From: Nitrospira lenta
GTDB lineage: Bacteria > Nitrospirota > Nitrospiria > Nitrospirales > Nitrospiraceae
Length of the DNA stretch: 64,000 nucleotides
Direction of reading: 5' to 3'
Assembly (NCBI GenBank): GCA_945865525.1
Contig: CAMBDY010000005.1
Span: 1-64,000, forward strand
The translations under genes and the position numbers were made by a program. The notes below the pieces were generated by a model. That model did not search any database. It was not told the origin of the DNA and saw only the letters and a list, made by a program, of their open reading frames with translations. Shown piece after piece: positions 5,905 through 53,362 of the stretch. Position 1 is the first letter of the stretch. Each line of letters opens with the position of its first letter.

Positions 5905-6915
5905 CTACTGTGCGACGTGACCTGTTTCAGGAATGGATATCGTTGCCGAGATGGGAGTTGAAAGATTGATGGCGGGAACTACACCGTTCTTGAACGGTAA
6001 ATTGAGCAGCGCATAGGGATTCACACGGGCGCCGTTAAGTTTAACGCCCCAATGGAGGTGCGGGCCAGTAGCGCGACCGGTGGCGCCCACCTTGCCGATG
6101 ATTTGCCCAGCCGTGATCAGGTCTCCGTCTTTGACTACGATCTCAGACAAATGAAAGTACATTGAGTAGAAGCCCAGCCCGTGATCGAGGAAGACACCCC
6201 GACCGGAAAAAATATGATCGACGGTGATGCGGACGATTCCGTCATTCGTGGCCACCACATCCGCGCCCATCGGTGCCCCAATATCCTCTCCATTGTGCGG
6301 GTTACGCGGTTTGCCGTTCATGATCCGCACGCTACCGAAAATGCCGGTGCGCTTCCCATTCACCGGCTCTACGAAGTTGCTGTGCCAGAGTTTCAAACGT
6401 GAATTCTCCGTAAGTGCAAGTTTGACTTGCATCTGCTCGGTCTTCCAGCGCGCCACCGCCTTCTTGTCCAGATCGACCTTGTCTTTTGGGAGCGTCAAAT
6501 GCTCGACGGTAAACTTCTCTTTTGACACCAGAACATTAAAGCTCAATTGCTTCGTCTGTTCGCCCTGCTTCACTTCCACGACCAATTCATGGGTCCCAGG
6601 ATCGTCCTGCATATCGATTCCGACCAACCCGACATAGCCAGCTGGCTCCCCTGGTCTGAACTCGCGAAAGAACGGAATGGTCCGATCGAGAAAGGTCCCC
6701 GTCACTTCGGTCGCCTGCACTTCGCCCTTCACCGTGACGACCAACACCTGCCCCTGCTTGCCACTATATTGTCCATCCAAGCCCTTCACTGCAGGGGACG
6801 TATGAGGAAACAACTCGACAGGGAACACGCTAGACAACAGCACGACGGCCATAATCATCGTCCGATCCAGCCACGAGGCCCGTAGCTGTGCTGGGCTGAG
6901 AGGAATCCGCATCAT
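5905..6915 (-). CDS. Exported M23 (LytM) peptidoglycan endopeptidase
   Basis: A 336-residue protein with an N-terminal signal/anchor (hydrophobic TMIMAVVLLSSVFPV), a beta-rich middle region, and a C-terminal M23 metallopeptidase domain. The zinc-binding residues are intact: HNGEDIG near residue 207 and the HLHWG motif near 286. Family members cleave peptide cross-links in peptidoglycan in the periplasm. The start ATG overlaps the pafA stop by four bases (ATGA), so the gene is translationally coupled to the Pup ligase and is the last gene of the proteasome operon. That link between a cell-wall enzyme and pupylation is unusual and may simply be positional. Confidence 0.9.
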   Translation of the reverse strand: MMRIPLSPAQLRASWLDRTMIMAVVLLSSVFPVELFPHTSPAVKGLDGQYSGKQGQVLVVTVKGEVQATEVTGTFLDRTIPFFREFRPGEPAGYVGLVGIDMQDDPGTHELVVEVKQGEQTKQLSFNVLVSKEKFTVEHLTLPKDKVDLDKKAVARWKTEQMQVKLALTENSRLKLWHSNFVEPVNGKRTGIFGSVRIMNGKPRNPHNGEDIGAPMGADVVATNDGIVRITVDHIFSGRGVFLDHGLGFYSMYFHLSEIVVKDGDLITAGQIIGKVGATGRATGPHLHWGVKLNGARVNPYALLNLPFKNGVVPAINLSTPISATISIPETGHVAQ

Positions 6916-8306
6916 CGCTCGAGCCTCAATCCTGACACCTGAGAAACTAGCTCATCCACACGTCGGTTCACCGCGCTGAAGGGGTCCATACAGAGAATCG
7001 TTTCCTCCCAATAGCCGTTGAGCTTTAAATAGGTCCAGTCCACCGTATAGGAACGATTCTTTGCGCGGGCGAACCGGATGAAATCTCCTCGCACCTTCGC
7101 CCTCGTGGTCTGAGGTGGCGTCGACATGGCCCGTTGCACTGATTCCTCGGCTACGACCCGTTCGATCATCCCACGGGACTCCATTAAATAATACAGCCCC
7201 CGCGTCCGTTTAACATCATGATATTGCAGATCCAGTAGGAAAACCCGTGGATCGTCCCAATCGCAGGCTTTTTTGTCGACATACGACTGGATAAGATGCC
7301 GCTTGGTCACCCAGTCGATTTCGCGCACCAACTGCATCGGATCTTCATCGAGCTTATCGAGTACCAGCGCCCACCGCTTCCACACATCGTCGAGGATCGG
7401 ATCGTGCGCTTGTTGTGCCAAATATTCTTGTGCACGATCCAAGTAGACCCGCTGCACCTCCACCGCCGTCAGCTGGCGCCCATCATCCAGCCTGACCTTC
7501 TTCTTCAACGACGGATCGCGCGAAATCTCCCTAATTGCCTTCACGGAATCCTCTAATTCCATCCCTTCGACTGCGTATCCTTCCTCGATCATAGACAATA
7601 TCAACGATGCCGTACCGACCTTCAAATACGTTGCGAACTCCGACATGTTGGAATCCCCAACAATGATATGGAGCCGCCGGTACCGCTCCGCATCGGCATG
7701 AGGCTCATCCCGGGTATTGATGATGCTACGCGAGGACGTAGTCGAGGAAGACGTCCTCTCGTGAATATGTTGGGCACGCTGTGAGATGCAATACTGCGTC
7801 TTGCCAGACACTTTCAGGACTTTCCCCGCTCCGCTATAGATCTGGCGTGTGACGAAAAATGGAATCAGCTGCTCCGTAACTTTCCAGAAATCGACATCAC
7901 GGCGCATCAGAAAATTTTCATGACAACCATAGGTATTCCCTAGCGAATCCGTGTTGTTCTTGAAAATATAGATTTCCCCGGACAGGCCATCTGCCCGCAA
8001 CCGTTCTTCCGCCGCAGGCAGACAGGCTTCCAGAAGCCGTTCGCCGGCTTTATCGTGGATGACAAGATCAAGAATGTTGTCGCACTCGGGGGTGGAATAC
8101 TCAGGGTGGCAACCAGTGTCTTGATAGAAGCGTGCGCCGTTTGCGAGAAAGGCATTAGAAGGCCAGCTGTTAGGGATGAGGCCTTCGAAGATACAACCCA
8201 GCACCCGCTCCATCGGCAGGTACACGCCCCCCTTCGGAGAGAAGATGAGCCCGTACTCATTTTCCAAACCGAAGATCCGTTGCTTCAGAGGACCGGCTTG
8301 TAACAT
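6912..8306 (-). CDS. pafA: Pup-protein ligase PafA
   Basis: The 464-residue product belongs to the glutamine-synthetase-like carboxylate-amine ligases. PafA activates the C-terminal glutamate of Pup with ATP and joins it to lysine side chains of target proteins. It starts with the family signature QRIFGLENEYGLIF and has YQDTGCHPEYSTPECD around residues 62-77, which includes the catalytic aspartate region. NNTDSLGNTYGCHENFL and NSRDEPHADAERYRRLH follow. Length matches PafA and differs from the longer Dop at 10072-11553. No convincing ribosome binding site precedes the ATG. It is separated from prcA by a 220-base gap. The cognate Pup is encoded at 50921-51118. Confidence 0.94.
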   Translation of the reverse strand: MLQAGPLKQRIFGLENEYGLIFSPKGGVYLPMERVLGCIFEGLIPNSWPSNAFLANGARFYQDTGCHPEYSTPECDNILDLVIHDKAGERLLEACLPAAEERLRADGLSGEIYIFKNNTDSLGNTYGCHENFLMRRDVDFWKVTEQLIPFFVTRQIYSGAGKVLKVSGKTQYCISQRAQHIHERTSSSTTSSRSIINTRDEPHADAERYRRLHIIVGDSNMSEFATYLKVGTASLILSMIEEGYAVEGMELEDSVKAIREISRDPSLKKKVRLDDGRQLTAVEVQRVYLDRAQEYLAQQAHDPILDDVWKRWALVLDKLDEDPMQLVREIDWVTKRHLIQSYVDKKACDWDDPRVFLLDLQYHDVKRTRGLYYLMESRGMIERVVAEESVQRAMSTPPQTTRAKVRGDFIRFARAKNRSYTVDWTYLKLNGYWEETILCMDPFSAVNRRVDELVSQVSGLRLER

Positions 8307-8527: not shown

Positions 8528-9214
8528 TTAAAGCGCGAGAAGAGACGTGGTGTCAGCAGTCGACAAACGGCGAAATCTTCGGCCTTCGCGGGTGCGATCG
8601 AGTGTCGCGACTTCCAGGCTCTCCGGCGAGAGTTTCTGGCTACGAACTTGCTCGAGCGAGGCGATGCAGAGCGAAAGCGTCGTTCGCAGGTCAGATGGTT
8701 TCGTCAAGCCCTTCTCTTTTAACAGAGCCTGGATGACCTCAGACTTACCCCCAATGACTGCAAAAGTACGCTCATCGATGATGCTCCCGTCAAAGGAAAT
8801 ACGATACATCTCGTTGGCATGGCCGTTGTGCCCAACTTGCACAACCAGGATTTCCACCTCCAACGGCTTCTGCTCCTGACTGAAAATGGTACCCACGCTT
8901 TGCGAATAGCCGTTCGCCAAGGAACGAGCCGTTACATCTTCCCGGCTGTACATAAAGCCCTTAAGATCTGCATGTCTGATACCAGCCTTCCGAAGATTTT
9001 CAAACTCGCTGTACTTACCGGCGCCGGCGAAGGCGATGCTGTCGTAGATCTCGGAAATTTTATACAGAGACGCACTAGGGTTCTCCGCGACCAGAAGAAT
9101 CCCGTCCACATATTCGATGGCAATGATGGAACGGCCTTTGGCGATACCTTTTTTGGCATACTCCGCCTTGTCCTGCATCATCTGCTCGGGTGAAACGTAA
9201 TAGGGCAATGGCAT
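8528..9214 (-). CDS. prcA: 20S proteasome alpha subunit
   Basis: A 228-residue alpha-type proteasome subunit, forming the outer rings that gate the 20S chamber. It shows the alpha-type N-terminus (YYVSPEQMMQDKAEYAKKGIAKGRSIIAIEY) instead of a processed threonine, with the later SVGTIFSQEQKPLEVEIL strand typical of bacterial PrcA. A strong ribosome binding site (AAGGAGAG) lies 6-7 bases before the ATG. It follows prcB by two bases, so alpha and beta are produced together. The C-terminal tail is short and ends in Leu-Leu-Ala-Leu. Confidence 0.93.
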   Translation of the reverse strand: MPLPYYVSPEQMMQDKAEYAKKGIAKGRSIIAIEYVDGILLVAENPSASLYKISEIYDSIAFAGAGKYSEFENLRKAGIRHADLKGFMYSREDVTARSLANGYSQSVGTIFSQEQKPLEVEILVVQVGHNGHANEMYRISFDGSIIDERTFAVIGGKSEVIQALLKEKGLTKPSDLRTTLSLCIASLEQVRSQKLSPESLEVATLDRTREGRRFRRLSTADTTSLLAL

Positions 9215-9216
9215 AG

Positions 9217-10044
9217 TTAGCTCTCCTTGGACCGGCGAGTTGCAAGCAGCCCGTCATAAATGCTGCGAATCTGCAGTTCGGACACGTCGGTGATGCCACG
9301 CCCATCCACAATCTTGGCCGTGGGATAAATGCCCCGCACGAGATCCGGTCCCCCAGTGCCAATATCGTCGTCGGCCGCATTGTACAAAGCCAGCAGAGCT
9401 AGCTTCAGGGCCTCTGGCTCAGCTAAGCCCTTGAGAAAATGCTCCCGCATCGTATTGCGTGCATCCTTCCCACCGGACCCGATAGCATGGTAGTCCGACT
9501 CTTCATACCGACCACCGGAAAGATCGTACTTGAAAATGCGCCCTTCGGTCCGTTTGACATCGTAGCCGACATAGAGCGGCATGACGACCAACCCTTGAAA
9601 GACCATGGGCAAATTAGCCTTAACCATCTGTCCAAGTTTATTAGCCTTCCCTTCACAAGAAAGTTGCACACCTTCCAACTTCTCGTAATGTTCCAGCTCA
9701 ACTTGGAATAGCTTCGCCATCTCGATACAGGGCCCCGCCGCACCAGCAATCGCCATCGCGGAATAATCGTCGATCTTAAACACTTTCTCAATCCGGCGCT
9801 CAGCAATTTGAAACCCTTCCGTCGCCCGTCGATCTCCGGCAATCACCACCCCCTGCTGATACTTGATTGCCAGCACCGTGGTGGCATGAGGCACACTCAT
9901 CGAGCCGGCTCCGCGCACCGGCTCGCCAGCCCCCTGCGCCTGCACGAAGCCATTCAGGCCTGTCGGCGTCAGCGCTGGATGGTGCTGCGTTAAAAAGTTG
10001 AAGAAGCTCGAATCGTCGTGATTGGGAAGAAATGGTAATTTCAT
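9217..10044 (-). CDS. prcB: 20S proteasome beta subunit (precursor with propeptide)
   Basis: The 275-residue product is the catalytic beta subunit. Residues 1-54 form a propeptide ending PHA, and the mature protein starts at Thr55 (TTVLAIKY). Counting from that threonine, Asp17 (in VVIAGD) and Lys33 (in RRIEK) occupy the canonical N-terminal nucleophile hydrolase positions, so the active site is complete. Autocatalytic removal of the propeptide during assembly is expected from the family. It lies 27 bases after dop and two bases before prcA. Confidence 0.95.
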   Translation of the reverse strand: MKLPFLPNHDDSSFFNFLTQHHPALTPTGLNGFVQAQGAGEPVRGAGSMSVPHATTVLAIKYQQGVVIAGDRRATEGFQIAERRIEKVFKIDDYSAMAIAGAAGPCIEMAKLFQVELEHYEKLEGVQLSCEGKANKLGQMVKANLPMVFQGLVVMPLYVGYDVKRTEGRIFKYDLSGGRYEESDYHAIGSGGKDARNTMREHFLKGLAEPEALKLALLALYNAADDDIGTGGPDLVRGIYPTAKIVDGRGITDVSELQIRSIYDGLLATRRSKES

Positions 10045-10071
10045 AATGTGCCCTACCAGGCTCCTTATTCG

Positions 10072-11553
10072 TCAGGCCTTGAGCCTCTCCAGCAATGCAT
10101 CGACGGTCTCGGCCTGGTCCAGCAAGTCGCTTGTCAGCGAAGCCGTCCCTCGCAGCGGGTCCATCAAGGGTACCCGTTTGATCTGATTATTGCCGACATC
10201 GAAGAGCACTGAGGTCCAGCTAACCCCGTAGAGCGACTTGGCAAACTGGCTGATGCAGCGTCCGCGGAAGTAGGCGCGCGTCCCGGAAGGGGGAGTGAAC
10301 TCCGCCCGCGCAACCTCGACCTCATGCACGACACGCTCCATCAGGTGGCTACGTTCAAGCGTAAAGTAGAGGCCCTTGTCTGGACGGACATCGTGGTACT
10401 GAAGATCCATCAGCCGGACGCGCGGATCATTCCATCCACACCCCTTCCGCTCCATATAGGATTCCATCATCTGGCGCTTAGCCACCCAATCCAGCTCGCG
10501 CACCAAAAGCCTGGGATCCTGCTCGAGCTTATCCAGCACCTCTTCCCAGCGGACAAGAATATCTTTCGTGACCTGCGAGATCTCATGACAGGCATAGTAT
10601 CCCATGGCGGCCTTCAAATAGGCTCGCTGAATAGCCACCGCCGTCATCGAGCGGCCCCCTGACAACTTAAGTGACGCTTTCATGCTCAGATCACGCGAGA
10701 CATCCTTGATGCCACGAACTGGGTCCTCCAACTCGATCTGTGGGATCTCGACGCCTGCATCCAGCAATTCCAGCAGGATGGCCAACGTACCCACCTTGAG
10801 GTAAGTTGGCAGCTCCGCCATATTGGCATCCCCGGCAATCACGTGGAGCCGCCGATACTGAGCATGTTCCGCATGGGGCTCATCCCGTGAATTCACGATG
10901 GGGCGGTGGACCATCGTATTAAGATCCACCAGACACTCGAAAAAATCCGCGCGCTGCGAAATTTGAAAATCTACTGGATTAGCCTGATTCTCCGCCCCAA
11001 CCTTCCCTGCCCCGGCGAAAATAGGCCTCGTGACCAAAAATGGCGCCACCGCTTTGACGATCCGGTCAAAGGGCACTGTGCGGGACATGAGATAGCTTTC
11101 GTGGTAGCCGTAACTGTTTCCCTTGCCGTCAGAATTGTTTTTGTACAAGACGAATGAATCACGCCCAGTCGCGTGTGCCATCTGCTCAAGACATTGGGCC
11201 AGGATATGGACGCCGGTCCGTTCGAAGGCGACGATCTCTCGAGGGCTGGTGCATTCTGGCGTGGAATATTCGGGATGGGCTCCATCGACGTAGAGGCGGC
11301 CTCCATTGGCCAGCACTTTATTTAACTGGCGATTGTAATCGGGACTGGGTCGCTCCCGTTCCCCCGGAACTTCGAATCCCCTCGCATCGAGCAGGGGGTT
11401 CTCATTTTCATAGTCCCAGACTGCCAGAGGCGCAGGCAGCCCAGAGTAGTGGGCGATGACGGCGATGGAATTGGCAACTGGGTCTGCGGCGGAAGAGTCG
11501 CGTGAGGCGATACCAAACTCTGTCTCTGTGCCCAATACGCGGGAAGTCGTCAA
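10072..11553 (-). CDS. dop: Depupylase/Pup deamidase Dop
   Basis: A 493-residue paralogue of PafA with the Dop hallmark VLGTETEFGIASRD near the N-terminus, DGAHPEYSTPECTSP, NNSDGKGNSYGYHESYL and NSRDEPHAEHAQYRRLH. Dop removes Pup from substrates, and deamidates Pup that ends in glutamine. Because the Pup in this genome ends in glutamate, only the depupylase role seems needed. The likely start is a TTG at 11553 preceded by AGGA and a 12-base dyad GTAGG-tt-CCTAC; no in-frame ATG lies nearby. It follows the ATPase gene by 29 bases. Confidence 0.93.
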   Translation of the reverse strand: MTTSRVLGTETEFGIASRDSSAADPVANSIAVIAHYSGLPAPLAVWDYENENPLLDARGFEVPGERERPSPDYNRQLNKVLANGGRLYVDGAHPEYSTPECTSPREIVAFERTGVHILAQCLEQMAHATGRDSFVLYKNNSDGKGNSYGYHESYLMSRTVPFDRIVKAVAPFLVTRPIFAGAGKVGAENQANPVDFQISQRADFFECLVDLNTMVHRPIVNSRDEPHAEHAQYRRLHVIAGDANMAELPTYLKVGTLAILLELLDAGVEIPQIELEDPVRGIKDVSRDLSMKASLKLSGGRSMTAVAIQRAYLKAAMGYYACHEISQVTKDILVRWEEVLDKLEQDPRLLVRELDWVAKRQMMESYMERKGCGWNDPRVRLMDLQYHDVRPDKGLYFTLERSHLMERVVHEVEVARAEFTPPSGTRAYFRGRCISQFAKSLYGVSWTSVLFDVGNNQIKRVPLMDPLRGTASLTSDLLDQAETVDALLERLKA

Positions 11554-11582: not shown

Positions 11583-13352
11583 TTAGAGATAATGCCCTGT
11601 TGTCACGGTTTCGATCTGATGCGACTCGCCTAGCCCGCCGCTGATCGTCCTAAGATGCACGATCTTTTCACCCTTCTTCCCGGAGACCTTCGCCCAGTCG
11701 TCCGGATTGGTCGTATTGGGTAGGTCTTCATGTTCCTTGAACTCTTCCCGAATAGCGCGGATCAAGTCCTCGGACCGGAGGCCGCGCCCTTCCTTCGCAA
11801 TCACCCGCTTCACGGCAAACTTCTTCGCGCGAGACACGATCCCTTCGATCAGCGCTCCGCTCGCAAAATCCTTGAAATAGAGCACTTCTTTTTCACCATT
11901 CGCATAGGTGACTTCGATAAACTTATTCTCTTCTGAAGAAGCATACATCGCCTCGACCGTCAGATCGATCATCTGCACGACTAAGGCCTTGGCATCTCCG
12001 CCATGGCACTTCAAGTCGTCTACAGCAAAAGGGATATCGATACTCAGATACTTCGAGAAAATATCCTTGGCTGCCACCGCATCTGGACGCCCCACCCTCA
12101 CCTTCACATCCAACCGACCAGCACGAAGGACTGCCGGATCGATGAGATCCTGACGGTTGCTGGCACCGATTACGATCACGTTACGAAGCCGCTCCATGCC
12201 GTCAATTTCCGAGAGAAACTGCGGCACGATTGTTGACTCAATATCGGAGGAGATCCCTGTACCTCTTGTCCGGAAAAGGGCATCCATTTCATCGAAGAAG
12301 ACGATAACGGGATTGCCGTCCGCCGCCCGCTCCTTCGCTTTCTTGAACACTTCACGGACTTGGCGCTCAGACTCTCCGACATACTTATTGAGCAACTCCG
12401 GCCCCTTCACGTGCAAAAAATAGCTCCGCACTTCCTTGCCAGTAAGATGTCCAAGCTTCTTCGCGATCGAATTCGCCACGGCCTTGGCAATCAAAGTTTT
12501 CCCGCAGCCAGGCGGGCCATAGAGCAGGACCCCCTTGGGAGCGCTCAGCTTGTACTCTGAAAAAATGGTCGGGTGCAGAAACGGCAACTCCACTGCATCC
12601 CGGACCTGCTCCAACTCGCGCTGCAGGCCTCCGATATGCGCATAGTCAACATCGGGGACTTCCTCCAGCACCAACTCTTCCGCCTCGGATTTAGGAAGCT
12701 TTTCAATGACATAGCCGGAGCGAGGATCATAAAGGAGATGGTCTCCGACGCTCAATCGTTCTCCCAGCAACGGATCGCCCAGCTCGACCACCTTTTCCTC
12801 ATCAAAGTGCAACGTGATCAGCGCACGATTGCCTTCTAGCACATCCTTGAGCCGCACGACTTCGCCTTGGATATTGAAACCCTTCACCTCAATGACATTC
12901 AATGCTTCGTTTAGGACCACTTCCTGCCCCTTGCGCAGCAATGTACTGTTGATCGAGGGATGCAGGCTGACCTTCATCTTCCTGCCTGACACATAGACAT
13001 TGCCGGTTTCGTCGGCATTGAGGCTGCAAAAGATGGCGTAGGTCGAGGGAGGCGCAGTGAGTTTTTCAACTTCTCCGCGCAGCGTTTCAATCTGCGCTTT
13101 CGCTTCCTGAAGCGCGGTGACGAGCTTGTCGTTCTGTTTGGTGGCTTGGTCGAACTGGTAGCGAGATTGATAGAGCCGACGGATCTCTTCTTCCATCGAC
13201 TGGACCTGCACGCGAAGTTTTTCCACCTCGCGAACCTGTTCGTCGTTGTATGGGGCCACGTCCGCTTCTCCCTCAGTCAACCGCTTGGTAATCTGCGTGA
13301 CGGGATCTCGGAGAGACCGGAATCGAGAGGAACTTCTCTTCTTCTCAGCCAT
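11583..13352 (-). CDS. arc: Proteasome-associated AAA+ ATPase ARC/Mpa
   Basis: About 589 residues from the ATG at 13352 (the ORF track extends to a TTG four codons upstream). It has an N-terminal coiled coil (about 35-95) that in Mpa captures Pup, tandem OB-fold domains, then an AAA+ module with Walker A GPPGCGKT near 277 and Walker B VIVFFDEMDALF near 348. The protein ends in GHYL. This matches the C-terminal GQYL motif of Mpa, whose penultimate tyrosine docks on the 20S alpha ring. It is the first gene of the proteasome operon and has its own promoter about 60-85 bases upstream. Confidence 0.94.
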   Translation of the reverse strand: MAEKKRSSSRFRSLRDPVTQITKRLTEGEADVAPYNDEQVREVEKLRVQVQSMEEEIRRLYQSRYQFDQATKQNDKLVTALQEAKAQIETLRGEVEKLTAPPSTYAIFCSLNADETGNVYVSGRKMKVSLHPSINSTLLRKGQEVVLNEALNVIEVKGFNIQGEVVRLKDVLEGNRALITLHFDEEKVVELGDPLLGERLSVGDHLLYDPRSGYVIEKLPKSEAEELVLEEVPDVDYAHIGGLQRELEQVRDAVELPFLHPTIFSEYKLSAPKGVLLYGPPGCGKTLIAKAVANSIAKKLGHLTGKEVRSYFLHVKGPELLNKYVGESERQVREVFKKAKERAADGNPVIVFFDEMDALFRTRGTGISSDIESTIVPQFLSEIDGMERLRNVIVIGASNRQDLIDPAVLRAGRLDVKVRVGRPDAVAAKDIFSKYLSIDIPFAVDDLKCHGGDAKALVVQMIDLTVEAMYASSEENKFIEVTYANGEKEVLYFKDFASGALIEGIVSRAKKFAVKRVIAKEGRGLRSEDLIRAIREEFKEHEDLPNTTNPDDWAKVSGKKGEKIVHLRTISGGLGESHQIETVTTGHYL

Positions 13353-13408
13353 GACGCCACTCAATGAAGCTCAGAATCTTTGCTCGAACGAGAAGTTCCT
13401 AGAAATGG

Positions 13409-13437
13409 ATTCTAGCACCCGTTCTAGAGGTGGTCAA
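13409..13437 (-). promoter_or_regulatory. Sigma70-type promoter of the proteasome operon
   Basis: On the minus strand TTGACC (13437-13432) and TAGAAT (13414-13409) are separated by exactly 17 bases, five-of-six matches each to the -35 and -10 consensus. Transcription would start near 13402, about 50 bases before the ARC ATG. It lies in the 100-base gap after the tenI/thiE-like stop codon, so the proteasome genes need not depend on the thiamine operon. Confidence 0.6.
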
Positions 13438-13464: not shown

Positions 13465-14100
13465 TCATTTTTCGCTCATCACCGCATCGACCAACTCACG
13501 TACCGCCGACTCCACATCGTCTGCGCTAAGAATCGCCGTGATCACCGCCGCACCGAACGCCCCAGCCTGCCGCATCTCACGTGCGCGCGCTGCCGTGACT
13601 CCACCAATCCCCACAATCGGAATGCGGACAGCCCGACAGGCCTTTTCAAGCGTCTGAAGACCAAGGGGTGTACCAAACGCCTGCTTGGAGGGGGTCTCAT
13701 AAATCGGACCAAGAATCACATAATCTGCTCCCTGCGACTCAGCCCGCACCGCTTCCTCCACGCTATGTACAGAAATACCCAAAAGACGATTTGTTCCCAG
13801 CAACCGCCGTGCCACAGAAACAGCGAGACTATTACTACGCAAATGGGTGCCGACACCGTCCAGAGCCAAAGCGATATCAACCCGATCGTTGATAAGGAAT
13901 TGCGATCCGTCGGAATTCGTCAGGGCCTGCACTTCCCGTGCAAGCGTGACAAGGTCCCTAGCCGAGAGATCGCGTTCACGAAGCTGAATGGCAGGGGCTG
14001 CGACTGAGAGGACGCGCTGGAGCAAAACAACGAGAGACCGCCTCTTCGTCTGATGGCGATCCGTGACAAGCAGAAGGCGGCTCGAAAGTGTCAACATCAA
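13465..14100 (-). CDS. Thiamine phosphate synthase family protein, TenI (thiazole tautomerase)-like
   Basis: The 211-residue TIM-barrel protein has the ThiE/TenI core: LLLVTDR, AIQLRERDLSARDL, FLINDRVDIALA and a phosphate-binding IVGIGGVT. Two motifs point to TenI rather than ThiE: LGISVHSVEEA, which holds the histidine used by TenI thiazole tautomerase, and GPIYETPSK, where ThiE usually has a P-T-P/S-T-K type loop. The ThiE G-V/I-H-L-G-Q-x-D segment is replaced by GTHLRSNSL. TenI speeds aromatisation of the thiazole made by ThiG, and thiS-thiG lie just upstream. A bifunctional or true ThiE role cannot be excluded, and would be needed if no other thiE exists. Confidence 0.8.
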   Translation of the reverse strand: MMLTLSSRLLLVTDRHQTKRRSLVVLLQRVLSVAAPAIQLRERDLSARDLVTLAREVQALTNSDGSQFLINDRVDIALALDGVGTHLRSNSLAVSVARRLLGTNRLLGISVHSVEEAVRAESQGADYVILGPIYETPSKQAFGTPLGLQTLEKACRAVRIPIVGIGGVTAARAREMRQAGAFGAAVITAILSADDVESAVRELVDAVMSEK

Positions 14101-46639: not shown

Positions 46640-46742
46640 CGAGCAAGGCTGTAATCAATGAACGCACTGGAGGCGTAGCCTCTAGGCTACGCTGAAGATG
46701 TTTGTGAGGCGAGAACCCCGCTAGAGCAGCAGCGCCCTGCTA
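46640..46742 (-). repeat. Palindromic intergenic repeat, copy C
   Basis: Read on the minus strand the element begins with the relA stop codon, TAGCAGGGCGCTGCTG, matching the start of copy B (TAGCAGG). It contains an 8-bp dyad GCGTAGCC-tcta-GGCTACGC (46673-46692), the counterpart of the dyad in copy A with different base pairs but the same symmetry. It fills the gap between DUF192 and relA. Confidence 0.6.
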
Positions 46743-48920
46743 AGACCGTTCCTGCCAGGCCCGCATCCGCCGTGCCGTGATCACTCCCTCGACCCGTTCG
46801 ACGGCTTTCAACACCTGATCAAGATGCTGCGTACCCGATACGTCGACGACGAAATCAAGGACAGATTTCTGATCCTCCCGTGTCGTAATCTCGGCGCGGC
46901 TAATGTTAGCATGGCACGCTGCAATCGCAGAGGACACATTCGCCAGCACACCAGTCTTATCAATAGCCACAATCGATATTTTGACCGAGTGCGTACCGGG
47001 CGTAGCGACATCCCATTCGACCTCTACCAACCGTTCTTTATCATAGTCCAGCGCCACCAAATTTGGACAATCGACAGCATGGATCGTCAGCCCGCGCCCG
47101 CGCGTGATATAGCCGAGAATGCGATCGCCCGGCACAGGGTGACAACAGCGCGACAACTGCATGAGTAGGTCGCGCGATCCCTTAACAAGAACACCGATAC
47201 CATCGCTCTTCCCGCCCACCACTTTCTGCACGGCTGGGCGCTCCTGAACTGACTCCTGCTTTCCGGATGGGGAAGCCGTAAGCTTATCAACGACCTGTGA
47301 TGTGGCCACGCTGCCGAAACCTACGGCTGCGATTAATTCCTCGGTGTTGGCGAATCCCGATTGACGAGCCACCACCAACAGCTCCGCCGACTTAAATATT
47401 TGAGCCGACACCATGCTATGACGGCGGAACTCAGACTCCAACAACCGACGTCCGATCTCGACGCTCCGCTTCTGTTCTTCAAGCTTAATCCAATGTTTAA
47501 TTTTTGTCTTCGCGCGTGAGGTGCTAACAAAATTCAGCCAGTCCTTGTGCGGCGTTTGCGTGGGCGATGTGAGGATTTCGACCGTATCGCCACTGGCTAG
47601 TTCATGCTTGAGCGGCACAATCTTCCCGTCCACCTTAGCCCCGACGCAATGGTCTCCCACCTCGGTATGAATCGCAAAGGCAAAATCAACGGGAGTCGAT
47701 CCTTTCGGCAACTCCTTGACGATCCCTTTGGGGGTGAAAACATACACCACATCGTGGAAGAGATCGAGCTTCACCGAGTCCATGAACTGGCGATTATCCG
47801 CCAAATTCTCATGCCACTCGACGAACTGATTGAGCCAGCCGAACGCCTTACTGTCACGCTCTGCAACCTGCCCCTGCTCCTTGTACTTCCAGTGCGCCGC
47901 AATGCCGTACTCAGCGATACGATGCATCTCCTCGGTGCGGATCTGGAACTCGACGTGCTCCCCCTTCGGCCCCACTACTGTCGTGTGAAGCGACTGGTAG
48001 AGATTGGACTTTGGAATTGCAATGTAATCTTTGAAGCGACCTGGGACGGGCCGCCAAAGGGAATGGATCACGCCCAGTACGGCGTAGCAGTTCATCTTGA
48101 GGCCCGTCACGATCCGTAGCGCCGTCAAATCATAGACCTCTTCAAACGTAATCGACTGCTTGTTCATCTTTTGGTAGATGCCATAGAGATGCTTGGGGCG
48201 CCCGCAGACTGCTCCGGCTAGCCCGTGCTCCTGTATGGCCGTGTGCACGAGTTGGCTGACTTCATCAATGTACTGCTGCCGATCCTCATCTCGTTTCGCC
48301 ACGCGGATACGCAACATCTCATAGATATCCGGCTTGAGATGCTTCAGGCAGAGGTCTTCCAGCTCATTCTTGACCCACCCGATCCCGAGACGATTCGCTA
48401 GCGGCGCATAGATCTCCAGCGTCTCCTGGCCAATCTCTTGACGCTTGGCCGCACCAAGATGTTCCAATGTGCGCATGTTGTGGAGCCGGTCAGCGAGCTT
48501 GATGAGAACAACCCGGATATCGTCCGCCATCGAGAGCAGCATCTTACGGAAATTCTCCGCCTGCCTCTCTTCGTAGCTCCGAAACGTGATCTTACCGATC
48601 TTGGTTACCCCATCGACCAGATGGAGCACATCCTTGCCGAACTCTTTTTCAAGTTCGTCGGCCGTAGCAACCGTATCTTCCAACGTATCGTGCAGCAGGC
48701 CCGCAACGATGGCGGTCACATCCGTTTTAAGCGAGGTGAGGACTCCGGCGACCGCAATAGGATGTTGCAGGTAGGGTTCTCCGGACAGGCGCCGCTGCCC
48801 TTCATGCGCTTTCGCAGAGAATTCATAGGCCTTGCGGACTAGCCCAAGATCGGCATCGGCAGCATAGCTTTTGATCCGATCCAGCAGCTGGTCAAGATCT
48901 GTGACAGTTTCGTGCACCAT
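46740..48920 (-). CDS. relA: Bifunctional (p)ppGpp synthetase/hydrolase (RelA/SpoT)
   Basis: A 726-residue long RSH enzyme. The hydrolase HD domain is intact (AHEGQRRLSGEPYLQHP, GLLHDTLEDT). The synthetase domain follows with YDLTALRIV and HTTVVGPKGEHVEFQIRT, then TGS (VYVFTPKGIVKELPKG) and C-terminal ACT (VKISIVAIDKTGVLANV). It therefore should both make and degrade the stringent-response alarmone (p)ppGpp. It ends within repeat copy C, and recJ ends seven bases upstream of its start codon, so the two are cotranscribed. Confidence 0.95.
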   Translation of the reverse strand: MVHETVTDLDQLLDRIKSYAADADLGLVRKAYEFSAKAHEGQRRLSGEPYLQHPIAVAGVLTSLKTDVTAIVAGLLHDTLEDTVATADELEKEFGKDVLHLVDGVTKIGKITFRSYEERQAENFRKMLLSMADDIRVVLIKLADRLHNMRTLEHLGAAKRQEIGQETLEIYAPLANRLGIGWVKNELEDLCLKHLKPDIYEMLRIRVAKRDEDRQQYIDEVSQLVHTAIQEHGLAGAVCGRPKHLYGIYQKMNKQSITFEEVYDLTALRIVTGLKMNCYAVLGVIHSLWRPVPGRFKDYIAIPKSNLYQSLHTTVVGPKGEHVEFQIRTEEMHRIAEYGIAAHWKYKEQGQVAERDSKAFGWLNQFVEWHENLADNRQFMDSVKLDLFHDVVYVFTPKGIVKELPKGSTPVDFAFAIHTEVGDHCVGAKVDGKIVPLKHELASGDTVEILTSPTQTPHKDWLNFVSTSRAKTKIKHWIKLEEQKRSVEIGRRLLESEFRRHSMVSAQIFKSAELLVVARQSGFANTEELIAAVGFGSVATSQVVDKLTASPSGKQESVQERPAVQKVVGGKSDGIGVLVKGSRDLLMQLSRCCHPVPGDRILGYITRGRGLTIHAVDCPNLVALDYDKERLVEVEWDVATPGTHSVKISIVAIDKTGVLANVSSAIAACHANISRAEITTREDQKSVLDFVVDVSGTQHLDQVLKAVERVEGVITARRMRAWQERS

Positions 48921-48927
48921 AGCTCAC

Positions 48928-50625
48928 TCACCCCATCACACTCGGACGGACATCACGAATACGGAGCTGAATCCTGTCACGGCCGTTCCAATGGTTCAGC
49001 TCAGGCGTAAAAGCTAGATCCACCGGCGTGCGGGACGGAATACCCCGCTCCAACAAAGACTTCATCCCGAACGCAATACTATCAAACGGCTCCGAAGAGC
49101 CTTGCCGTACGGTCATTTTTAGATGCTTCTCGCCAACCGTGCGGGACTCCATCACTTCGAGGCGGGTCACGGCAAACGTGGGTTCCGGATTGCCAGCCCC
49201 AAACGGATGCAGCGAAGAGATTTCCTGGAGCAACTTCAGATTCACTTCGTCCAGCCGCACCTCGGCATCGACATTTAACGTTGGTACCTTGGCCCCCTCA
49301 TGGGTCCAGCCTGCGACTACACCGGAAAATTTAGTGCGGAACTCGTCGATCCGAGATTCGCGAATCGTCACTCCAGCAGCGCTAGGATGCCCACCGAACG
49401 CCTCCAGCATCTCCCGGCAAGATGCCAAGCCTTGATAGAGGTCAAATCCGCCGGTCGTCCGCGCCGAGCCTTTGGCAGTGCCCTGCTCGTTGATCGCCAT
49501 AACAATCGCGGGGCGCTGAAACCGATCGACCAACCGAGCGGCAACAATCCCAACCACTCCAAGATGCCAGTTCCTGGAAGCCAAGACCAATGCGGGCGGC
49601 AGCTCTTTGTCCTTCAGCAACGCCAGCGCCTCGTCCATGATACCCACTTCGATCCGTTGCCGTTCCCGATTTAGTTGTTCCAACCGGTCTGCCAACTGCT
49701 GCGCCTCAAGCGGATTGTCGGTCGTCAACAACCGCACTCCCAACATGGCATCGTCCAATCGCCCGGCTGCATTGATACGGGGGGCGAGCTTGAAGGCGAT
49801 CGTTTCCGCCGTGCACTCACGGGTTACCCCCGCTACCTGCTTCAAGGCCTGCACGCCGCAGCGCGCGCCACCGGACAACTTGACCAGCCCTTCACGTACA
49901 AAATTTCGATTCTCATCATGCAACGGTACCACGTCAGCCACCGTCGCGAGGGCCACAAGATCGAGCAACGACTCCAACGGTACCCCTGCCACCCCGTAAC
50001 GCGACTGGTACGCCTGCGCTACCTTGTAGGCCAACGCCGCAGAGCAGAGCCCGCGGAACGGATAGAGAGCTCCGACGCGATGGGGATTGAGCACCGCCAC
50101 AGCCGGCGGCATCGCCTCGTCGCTCTGGTGATGGTCGGTCACCACCACATCCATGCCCAGCTTGGCCGCCAAGGCAATTTCTTTATGAGAGGTCGTGCCG
50201 CAATCGGAAGTCACCAGCAGCGCGATCCCGTCGTCATGCAACCGCTGCACAGCACTGAGATTGAGTCCATACCCTTCACGAAAACGATGGGGCACATAGG
50301 CGCGCACGTTGGCACCCAACCCGCCGAAAAACAACAGGTAGACACTCGTCGCCGTAATCCCGTCGACATCGTAATCACCGTAAAAACAGATCGGCTCCCG
50401 CGTCATAACCGCGCGATGTAACCGCTCGACCGCCTGCTCCATATCCGGGATTAAAAATGGATCGTGCGGCGACCGCAGCGACATCCAGGACGTGGCTTCA
50501 TCCGGCGTCGTCACGCCACGGGCCAAAAAAAGCGAAGCGGTAGCAGGAGAAATCGAAAGGGCCTGGACCAACGATGCCCGTTGAGAGAGGTTGATGTCAC
50601 GAAAGACCCAGAGCTTCGATTTCAT
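48928..50625 (-). CDS. recJ: Single-stranded-DNA exonuclease RecJ
   Basis: The 565-residue 5'-3' exonuclease has the DHH phosphoesterase motifs CFYGDYDVDGITATSVYLLF (motif I), LLVTSDCGTTSHKEI, VVTDHHQSDE (motif III) and the DHHA1 RFQRPAIVMAI...GSARTTGGFDL with GGHPSAAGVTI. It acts in mismatch repair and recombination. Just downstream lies relA; upstream is a 295-base gap before pup. RecJ probably has its own promoter in 50626-50890, but no clear box was identified there. Confidence 0.94.
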   Translation of the reverse strand: MKSKLWVFRDINLSQRASLVQALSISPATASLFLARGVTTPDEATSWMSLRSPHDPFLIPDMEQAVERLHRAVMTREPICFYGDYDVDGITATSVYLLFFGGLGANVRAYVPHRFREGYGLNLSAVQRLHDDGIALLVTSDCGTTSHKEIALAAKLGMDVVVTDHHQSDEAMPPAVAVLNPHRVGALYPFRGLCSAALAYKVAQAYQSRYGVAGVPLESLLDLVALATVADVVPLHDENRNFVREGLVKLSGGARCGVQALKQVAGVTRECTAETIAFKLAPRINAAGRLDDAMLGVRLLTTDNPLEAQQLADRLEQLNRERQRIEVGIMDEALALLKDKELPPALVLASRNWHLGVVGIVAARLVDRFQRPAIVMAINEQGTAKGSARTTGGFDLYQGLASCREMLEAFGGHPSAAGVTIRESRIDEFRTKFSGVVAGWTHEGAKVPTLNVDAEVRLDEVNLKLLQEISSLHPFGAGNPEPTFAVTRLEVMESRTVGEKHLKMTVRQGSSEPFDSIAFGMKSLLERGIPSRTPVDLAFTPELNHWNGRDRIQLRIRDVRPSVMG

Positions 50626-50890
50626 GAAAGTGCCTCGAATGGTTCTGAGCCTCGAAAGAAGCTAACTAGATGAGAATTAAAGGGATACTAGCGGCTCGTT
50701 GCGACGTTGTCAAACCAGCGAGTGCGCCACCACATCCGGCAAACTCAGCACGATGAACGAGGAACGCTGAAGTCAAAGCAGTGCCCCTGTTCAGCGCTCA
50801 TCGCTCGCCGTTCAGCGATGTTTCATCGAGCCCACGCTTGGAGCATCTTACAAAACATCGACGTGCGAGATAAGGAGAGGGAGAGAAGGA

Positions 50891-50938
50891 CAAAAAAAAG
50901 GGGGGGGGAGTAGCCCCGAGCTACTCCCCCCCTTTTTG
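50891..50938 (-). terminator. Intrinsic terminator formed partly by pup codons
   Basis: On the minus strand GGGGGGGAGTAG (50932-50921) pairs with CTACTCCCCCCC(CC) across a CTCGGGG loop, followed by T8. The 5' arm is the last two Gly codons, the Glu codon and the stop of pup, and AAAAA before it can pair with the start of the T run. The 12-bp GC-rich stem plus T8 is a textbook intrinsic terminator. Confidence 0.85.
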
Positions 50939-51118
50939 CACGTAGTTCTTGACGAATTCTTCTGCGTTTTTTTCGAGGACGTTGTCAATTTCATCGACCA
51001 GCTTGTCGATGTCTTCTTTCATCTTCTTGCCGGCTTCGACGACCTTCGGGTTGGCCTTAACCTCGCCTTTCCCCGGGGGCTCCCGCTTGGGCTCTTGCTT
51101 GCGCTCCTGTTTTTCCAT
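50921..51118 (-). CDS. pup: Prokaryotic ubiquitin-like protein Pup
   Basis: A 65-residue, disordered, Lys/Glu-rich protein with the C-terminal Pup signature IDKLVDEIDNVLEKNAEEF followed by VKNYVQKGGE. This matches actinobacterial Pup (D-E-I-D-x-V-L-E-x-N-A-E-x-F-V-x-x-Y-V-Q-K-G-G-Q/E). The terminal residue is already glutamate, so Dop deamidation is not needed before PafA ligation. The N-terminal half is rich in Lys, Glu, Pro and Gln. GGGAGG lies seven bases before the ATG. A possible promoter (TTGACG at 51210) is weak at -10. The gene is about 38 kb from the proteasome operon, alone between hppA and recJ. Confidence 0.95.
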   Translation of the reverse strand: MEKQERKQEPKREPPGKGEVKANPKVVEAGKKMKEDIDKLVDEIDNVLEKNAEEFVKNYVQKGGE

Positions 51119-51243
51119 CCGAGCACCTCCCGTACAACTGGGGAACTCTCGTGGACCAGCACAACGTGATCCCTGCTATCACCTTACTCTAGGGCCATTT
51201 CAGCCGTCAAGCCAAGCAAAGAAACATGACGCGTCGCTCGTAT

Positions 51244-51310: not shown

Positions 51311-53362
51311 TTACACGAGCAGGGATACAATCAGCAACGCCACAATGTTGATCACCTTGATCATTGGATTAATCGCCGGGCCGGCCGTATCCTTGTAGGG
51401 ATCGCCAACCGTGTCGCCCGTGACAGCCGCCTTGTGTGTATCCGTTCCCTTCATGCCCTGCTCTTCAATATACTTCTTGGCATTGTCCCAAGCCCCGCCG
51501 CCACTCGTCATCGAGATGGCCACGAATAGACCGGTGACAATGCTACCGACCAGCATGCCGCCTAAGGCCTGCGGTCCCAGGACCACGCCGACCAAAATCG
51601 GGGAGATGACCGGAATCAGTCCAGGCACCATCATCTTCTTGATCGCCGCCTGAGTCACGATATCCACACAGGTTCCGTATTCCGGCTTACCGGTGCCCTC
51701 CATAATTCCCTTAATCGTCCGGAACTGCCGACGCACTTCTTCCACCACAAGACCTGCTGCTTCTCCCACGGCCTTCATACAGAGGGCCCCGAAAATGAAG
51801 GGCAGCATGCCCCCCAAAAACAGTCCGACCAGGACCGAAGGATTAGAAAGATCAAAGGTGCTCGCCCCACTCCCTTTGGCTACTTCACGCGCATATTCAG
51901 CGAACAACACCACTGCCGCAAGACCAGCCGATCCGATTGCATAGCCCTTCGTCACAGCTTTGGTCGTATTGCCAACCGCATCCAAGGGATCGGTGATGTC
52001 TCGCACCTCTTTGCCGAGGTGCGCCATCTCGGCAATGCCGCCTGCATTGTCAGTGATTGGACCAAAGGCATCGATCGCCACCACGATTCCAGCCATCGAC
52101 AGCATCGAGACTGCCGCAGTAGCTACGCCGTATAAGCCACCTAACGCCGCACCGCCACACAGCCAATAGCTTGTCAGAATGGCCGCGCCGATCACCACCA
52201 CCGGCAAGGCTGTCGCCTCCATCCCCACCGCCAGCCCTGCGATGATATTCGTCGCATGACCCGTTTCACTAGCTTTAGCAATCGCCTTTACCGGCAGATA
52301 GCTCTTTGACGTGTAGTAATCTGTGATAAAAACAAGTGCGAGGGTCACGGCCAAGCCGATCAACGCAGCGAGGTAGTAGCTCATCCCGCTCACACCGCCC
52401 ACCCCCTCCATAATTGAGGTTGTCACAGGATAGAACACCACTGCTGCAATGCCACCCGCTACAAACAGCCCCTTGTAGAGCGCCGTCATGATCCCACCGC
52501 CCTTGCTCACCTTCACAAAGAGAATACCAATGATCGTCGCAAAGATCGTGACGCCGCCTAACGCCAGCGGATAGAGAATCGGCGCGCTGACCCCCTTGAA
52601 CAGAGTGAAGGCCAAGACCATCGCCGCCACCGTCGTCACCGCATAAGTCTCAAAGAGGTCCGCTGCCATACCAGCGCAGTCGCCGACATTGTCGCCCACG
52701 TTATCTGCGATGACTGCCGGGTTGCGTGGGTCGTCTTCCGGAATCCCGGCTTCAACTTTCCCGACAAGGTCCGCGCCAACGTCCGCCGCTTTCGTATAAA
52801 TACCACCGCCCACTCGGGCAAAGACCGAAATCAAACTGCCGCCGAATCCAAGACTCAGCAGGGCATGGATCGCTTTTTCCTGCCCTGCAATCTGCGACGC
52901 CACCACATAGAACGTTGTAATGGCCAGCAACCCTAAACCGATCAACAAGAGCCCCGTCACTGCACCGCCACGGAACGCCACGGTCAAGGCCGCATTCATG
53001 CCATTATGCGCAGCCTGGGCCGTCCGCACGTTCGCCCGTACCGCAATGACCATGCCCACATAGCCGGCTAGAGACGACGCGCTAGCCCCGATCAAAAATC
53101 CGATCGCGGTCAGTAATCCGAATTTATCGGAAAACGTCCCCGCACCCCACAACAGAGCAAACAATACAGCTGCGACAACGCCGACGGTCCGATACTGGCG
53201 ATTCAGATAGGCGCTCGCGCCTTCTTGAATGGCCTTGGCAATTTCTTGCATCTTCGGATTCCCAGCATCCAGCCTAAAGACCCACATGGCCAAATAGAGG
53301 CCATAAGCAATGCCAGTCACCGCCGATACCAACGCAAACATAATGATGGATGAGTCGCTCAC
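51311..53362 (-). CDS. hppA: Membrane H+-translocating pyrophosphatase (K+-independent type)
   Basis: A 683-residue protein with about 16 hydrophobic segments that couples pyrophosphate hydrolysis to proton pumping. Catalytic loops are intact: [38 protein letters not shown], and DNAGGIAEM. The subclass motif [12 protein letters not shown] has Lys where K+-dependent enzymes have Ala, pointing to the K+-independent H+-pump class. It starts with GTG behind AGGAGG and has a promoter about 140 bases upstream. In energy-limited nitrifiers it may recover energy from biosynthetic PPi. Confidence 0.95.

Follow-up and report, generated by a model that had tools for sequence, protein, structure and literature searches.

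The first 64,000 nucleotides of contig CAMBDY010000005.1 of Nitrospira lenta (assembly GCA_945865525.1; hereafter, the window) encode a Pup-proteasome system that is complete but split. Pup is a small protein tag by which bacterial proteins are targeted for degradation. Its gene, pup, is located between hppA and recJ, with all three genes on the same strand, and the genes for the proteasomal ATPase, the depupylase Dop, the two 20S proteasome subunits and the Pup ligase form a separate block, ARC-dop-prcB-prcA-pafA (13364–6912), in which all five products score above the NCBIfam equivalog cut-offs. The distance to pup is 37.6 kb from ARC and about 39 kb from dop. The first-pass annotation, made from the sequence alone, had described a true Pup gene, ending in Glu and lying between hppA and recJ, about 38 kb from an otherwise complete set of enzyme genes, and all these points, including the coordinates, were confirmed.

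The pup gene is a minus-strand open reading frame (ORF) of 65 codons (50921–51118) that starts with ATG and encodes a protein with the C-terminal sequence ...VDEIDNVLEKNAEEFVKNYVQKGGE. The product matches the Pfam Pup family (PF05639; 75.8 bits, E = 5e-21, against a cut-off of 27 bits) and TIGR03687 (60.9 bits, above the curated cut-off of 41.45); the UBact model (NF033388) has no match in this ORF. Pup is largely disordered, and residues 28–65 of the window protein align, without gaps, with the Mycobacterium tuberculosis Pup chains in solved structures. The C-terminus is GGE, in agreement with the GG followed by E or Q that defines the family. A PF05639 profile search of the whole genome (1.8 Mb in 39 contigs) retrieved the window ORF as the sole Pup match.

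Across 80 Nitrospira copies of pup, the median ratio of nonsynonymous to synonymous substitution rates (dN/dS) is 0.019, which indicates strong purifying selection and, together with the 441 related loci that were found, places the ORF far beyond chance. A short ORF far from its operon could also be a relic, that is, a decaying copy of pup, or spurious, but the dN/dS value contradicts this explanation, as do the conservation of the promoter and ribosome-binding site described below and the status of this gene as the only Pup in the genome, so that we give it practically no weight. Judging from its sequence, the window ORF is a genuine, functional-looking and single pup gene.

The operon appears equally intact. 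The catalytic Asp region (D..HPEY) is retained both in PafA, where FYQDTGCHPEY aligns to structure 4b0t, and in Dop, compared with 4b0r. We take D..HPEY in these two proteins, along with the PrcB Thr, to be catalytic positions, and the C-terminal GHY(L/F) tail of ARC to be the docking position. These features bear on the possibility that the moved Pup has a role independent of the proteasome, with pup and the operon no longer making up one system. Pupylation is known from some actinobacteria that have no proteasome subunits (PMC3511204), and the linkage between pup and the operon is lost here; however, the operon retains prcA and prcB with Thr1, the GHY(L/F) tail is kept in every ATPase homologue read from operons of this type (type-1, as defined below), and the C-terminal half of Pup is that of M. 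tuberculosis Pup. We consider such a role quite improbable.

Location of pup in the Nitrospira order

The split noted in the first-pass annotation extends well beyond this bacterium: the arrangement is fixed across the order. In all 80 nearest named Nitrospira loci, that of Nitrospira moscoviensis among them, the gene order is hppA-pup-recJ-relA, as far as the contigs reach. Beyond these, we read 40 regions, 23 from the same order and 17 from other orders or classes of the phylum. In all 23 regions of the order, pup belongs to the hppA/recJ/relA neighbourhood (relA is always present, and hppA or recJ is missing nearby in a few). The regions from other orders or classes show the same ARC-dop-prcB-prcA-pafA succession, usually with the thiE flank (L114–L129, L131), but differ in that pup is inside the operon, directly before prcB (17 of 17; two of these Pups have diverged beyond the reach of tblastn and were read directly in the gap between dop and prcB). 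In 16 of the 17, dop adjoins pup; G185 has dop on another contig.

All 20 operons read within the order have a dop-prcB junction without pup. Where both genes are on one contig, pup and dop are at least 40 kb apart in 41 of 41 genomes of the order and at most 1.6 kb apart in 19 of 19 genomes outside it. No genome in the phylum sample, which comprises 296 genomes, has two Pup matches. The simplest reading of these gene orders is a single relocation of pup at the base of the Nitrospira order, either by duplication and loss or by excision and insertion.

A close relative, G001, has an intact hppA-recJ interval of 335 bp (C31:34160–34494) without pup. This genome carries type-2 ligases only (we denote the ARC-dop-prcB-prcA-pafA set that goes with Pup as type-1 and the UBact-operon set as type-2), and no contig end yielded the type-1 operon block. 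Joint loss of pup and the type-1 operon was considered; for the operon, it is indistinguishable from an assembly gap, because C31 starts within the homologue of the gene located at 16.3–17.7 kb of the window. In G181, G259, G011 and G006, contig breaks, missing flanks or Ns account for the absence of pup.

In seven of 120 relatives (L100, L102, L108, L109, L122, L125 and L127), the C-terminus of Pup is GGQ rather than GGE. Such ends occur among relocated and operon-borne genes alike, suggesting that the terminal residue switched more than once; by the same distribution, a Glu terminus is not essential to the split arrangement. One divergent Pup (L106 of G179; 43 bits), which contains a short insertion and ends in ...FVKNNVQKGGE, is encoded at the usual place between hppA and recJ.

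Predicted transcription signals of pup

About 62 nt upstream of the pup start codon, there is a predicted promoter that, in an alignment of 78 intergenic sequences, stands out as a conserved block amid variable DNA; the ribosome-binding site is kept in the same alignment. In a strict search, the promoter pattern occurred in 78 of the 79 Nitrospira loci and in 6 of 22 other loci of the order, and in none of the 16 loci with an operon-borne pup. At the other end of the gene, a terminator-like hairpin is predicted, with a fold of -31 kcal/mol and a z of -4.1. Its 5′ arm consists of the last pup codons, GGG GGG GAG, and the stop codon TAG, so that the ends of translation and transcription would share bases. 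Terminators were assessed by folding with shuffled controls, as most of the hairpins escaped a strict search that allowed no bulges. Similar hairpins are found at the end of pup in a subset of Nitrospira. With an apparent promoter and terminator of its own, pup is likely to be transcribed separately, in line with the suggestion of the first-pass annotation that the supply of Pup can be regulated apart from the protease, and separate regulation is plausible.

An Rfam scan of 46–54 kb yielded no match, and there are no tRNA genes in the window. The hppA-recJ interval is broken or filled with Ns in some assemblies (two loci of G006, and G011), perhaps caused by the hairpin and the runs of G/C.

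UBact as a second system in the same genome

The first-pass annotation had stated that the modifier was Pup and not UBact, which is correct for the window gene but does not extend to the cell as a whole. The genome-wide search with Pup and UBact models that it proposed recovered only one Pup, as described above, but also a UBact gene on contig C10, within a complete ARC2-dop2-UBact-prcB2-prcA2-pafA2 operon. A UBact gene elsewhere in the genome had been put forward as evidence against the identification of Pup; it exists, but the identity of Pup is unaffected, because UBact is encoded in a separate operon, complete with dop, pafA, proteasome and ATPase genes of its own.

The enzymes of the UBact operon score below the Pup-system equivalog cut-offs, and, gene for gene, the aligned parts of enzymes and subunits are 30–39% identical between the two systems (33% for the type-1 and type-2 ligases). 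UBact and Pup are 25% identical, with the C-termini AERYRQRTGQ and FVKNYVQKGGE, respectively. The end of UBact is RTGQ in this genome and RTGE in the near relative G001. The UBact-operon ATPase (L091:11412–13172, and L132–L141) has no GHY(L/F) tail and its C-termini are variable, so that its docking to the proteasome may differ. UBact operons are complete in all 10 further loci read, and UBact lies inside the type-2 operon in 11 of 11 loci. Across the phylum sample, Pup was detected in 140 genomes, UBact in 103 and both in 100.

The presence of both systems in one cell, the homology of their ligases and the free-standing position of pup, which ties it to neither operon, leave some room for Pup being shared by PafA and PafA2, or having switched to the type-2 enzymes. 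Against this, the type-2 operon has its own modifier in every locus read, the C-termini of the two modifiers differ, and the Pup-only genomes read, such as those behind L145, L150, L151 and L160, encode the type-1 operon together with no more than two ligase-family genes; elsewhere, pup is itself part of the type-1 operon. Sharing or switching is therefore unlikely, although slightly less so than the proteasome-independent role discussed above.

Overall, we assign a probability of roughly 0.85 to the reading that the window harbors the genome's one functional pup gene, relocated from a Pup-proteasome operon that is otherwise intact, and that it serves ordinary pupylation beside a separate UBact system. 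The sequences show that, in an ancestor of the order, pup departed from its position between dop and prcB, that this position closed, and that pup became fixed between hppA and recJ as what appears to be a unit transcribed alone, with a promoter, ribosome-binding site and terminator of its own; the rate of Pup production could thus be set independently of the enzymes. Under this scenario, the Glu-ending Pup would be charged directly by the window PafA and ligated to lysines; Dop would remove Pup from pupylated proteins, and ARC, via its GHYL tail, would thread them into the PrcBA core. The UBact-proteasome would be the second, separate system encoded in the same cell.

Several observations temper this reading. 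The pairing of Pup with the type-1 ligase rests on gene neighbourhood and phyletic pattern; the promoter and terminator of pup are sequence predictions, and the hairpin folds clearly better than shuffled sequences in only about a third of the Nitrospira copies; and three genomes encode UBact without a detected Pup. The chances seem evenly balanced that pup moved once in the Nitrospira order, acquired its own regulation and retained it, with two insulated systems in one cell supplied differently, Pup by a free-standing unit and UBact by a gene within its operon.

Table 1 Features of the split Pup-proteasome system, its neighbours and the UBact operon (window positions unless a contig is named).
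Feature	Coordinates	Strand	Remarks
pafA, Pup ligase	6912..8306	-	TIGR03686 561 bits (cut-off 551)
prcA, 20S alpha	8528..9214	-	TIGR03691 299 bits
prcB, 20S beta	9217..10044	-	TIGR03690 297 bits; propeptide and Thr1 (HA|TTVL)
Closed dop-prcB junction, 27 bp	10045..10071	-	pup slot in other Nitrospirota orders
dop	10072..11553	-	TIGR03688 546 bits; aligns to Dop 4b0r, LYVDxAHPEY kept
ARC/Mpa proteasomal ATPase	11583..13364	-	TIGR03689 737 bits; C-terminus GHYL
Predicted proteasome-operon promoter	13409..13437	-	TTGACC-17-TAGAAT; sequence match only
thiE	13465..14100	-	Pfam TMP-TENI; flank common to moved and unmoved operons
relA/spoT-type gene, after recJ	46740..48920	-	syntenic in relatives; named from sequence
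recJ, downstream neighbour	48928..50625	-	syntenic in relatives; name from first-pass annotation
Predicted recJ promoter	50685..50713	-	TTGACA-17-TAGTAT; after the pup terminator
Terminator-like hairpin	50902..50932	-	14 bp stem, then T8
pup	50921..51118	-	65 aa; scores and dN/dS in text
Ribosome-binding site of pup	51124..51131	-	GGGAGGTG
Predicted pup promoter	51181..51210	-	TTGACG-18-TAAGGT
hppA, upstream neighbour	51311..53362	-	syntenic in relatives; name from first-pass annotation
ARC2-dop2-UBact-prcB2-prcA2-pafA2 operon	contig C10 of G000:6379-13172		complete (L091, L002)
UBact gene	C10:9563-9724		80.1 bits against NF033388 (cut-off 35)

Comparison with known Pup and UBact systems

Pup has been described as invariably adjacent to a gene of the PafA family (PMC2588565), and the gene order of the Pup system as rigidly conserved (PMC3511204); Dop and PafA are conserved across Nitrospirae (PMC7947786). 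The window pup departs from the adjacency rule of PMC2588565, which concerns gene order, not function. The whole order breaks this rule in the same manner, an indication that expression of the modifier can be uncoupled from that of the enzymes. Within the open-licence literature, we found no description of a relocated pup or of Pup-UBact coexistence in Nitrospira, and the relocated pup is, as far as we found there, a previously unremarked variant. The routine coexistence of Pup- and UBact-proteasomes raises a question that is testable in cultivable Nitrospira, namely, what the role of each of the two parallel tag-and-degrade systems is and how they are kept apart.

Compared with the actinobacterial Pup-proteasome, as known from M. 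tuberculosis (PMC3511204, PMC8223512), the C-terminal half of Pup is nearly identical. In M. tuberculosis, however, pup follows dop and immediately precedes prcB, whereas in Nitrospira lenta some 38 kb separate it from the operon and it has its own apparent promoter, and the mycobacterial Pup ends in Gln, in contrast to the Glu found here. According to PMC3511204 (Figure 2 legend), Leptospirillum ferrooxidans has two copies of the whole system, one of them without the terminal GGE, and is thus similar in having two diverged whole-system copies in one Nitrospirae genome, so that coexistence of two systems in the phylum is not new in itself; the copies are described there as identical in gene context, and a relocation of pup is not described. 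The UBact-proteasome (NF033388), present in the same genome as the window, has a homologous layout of dop, pafA, proteasome and ATPase genes, but differs from the Pup system in its modifier, which is encoded inside the operon, and in its ATPase, which lacks the GHYL tail.
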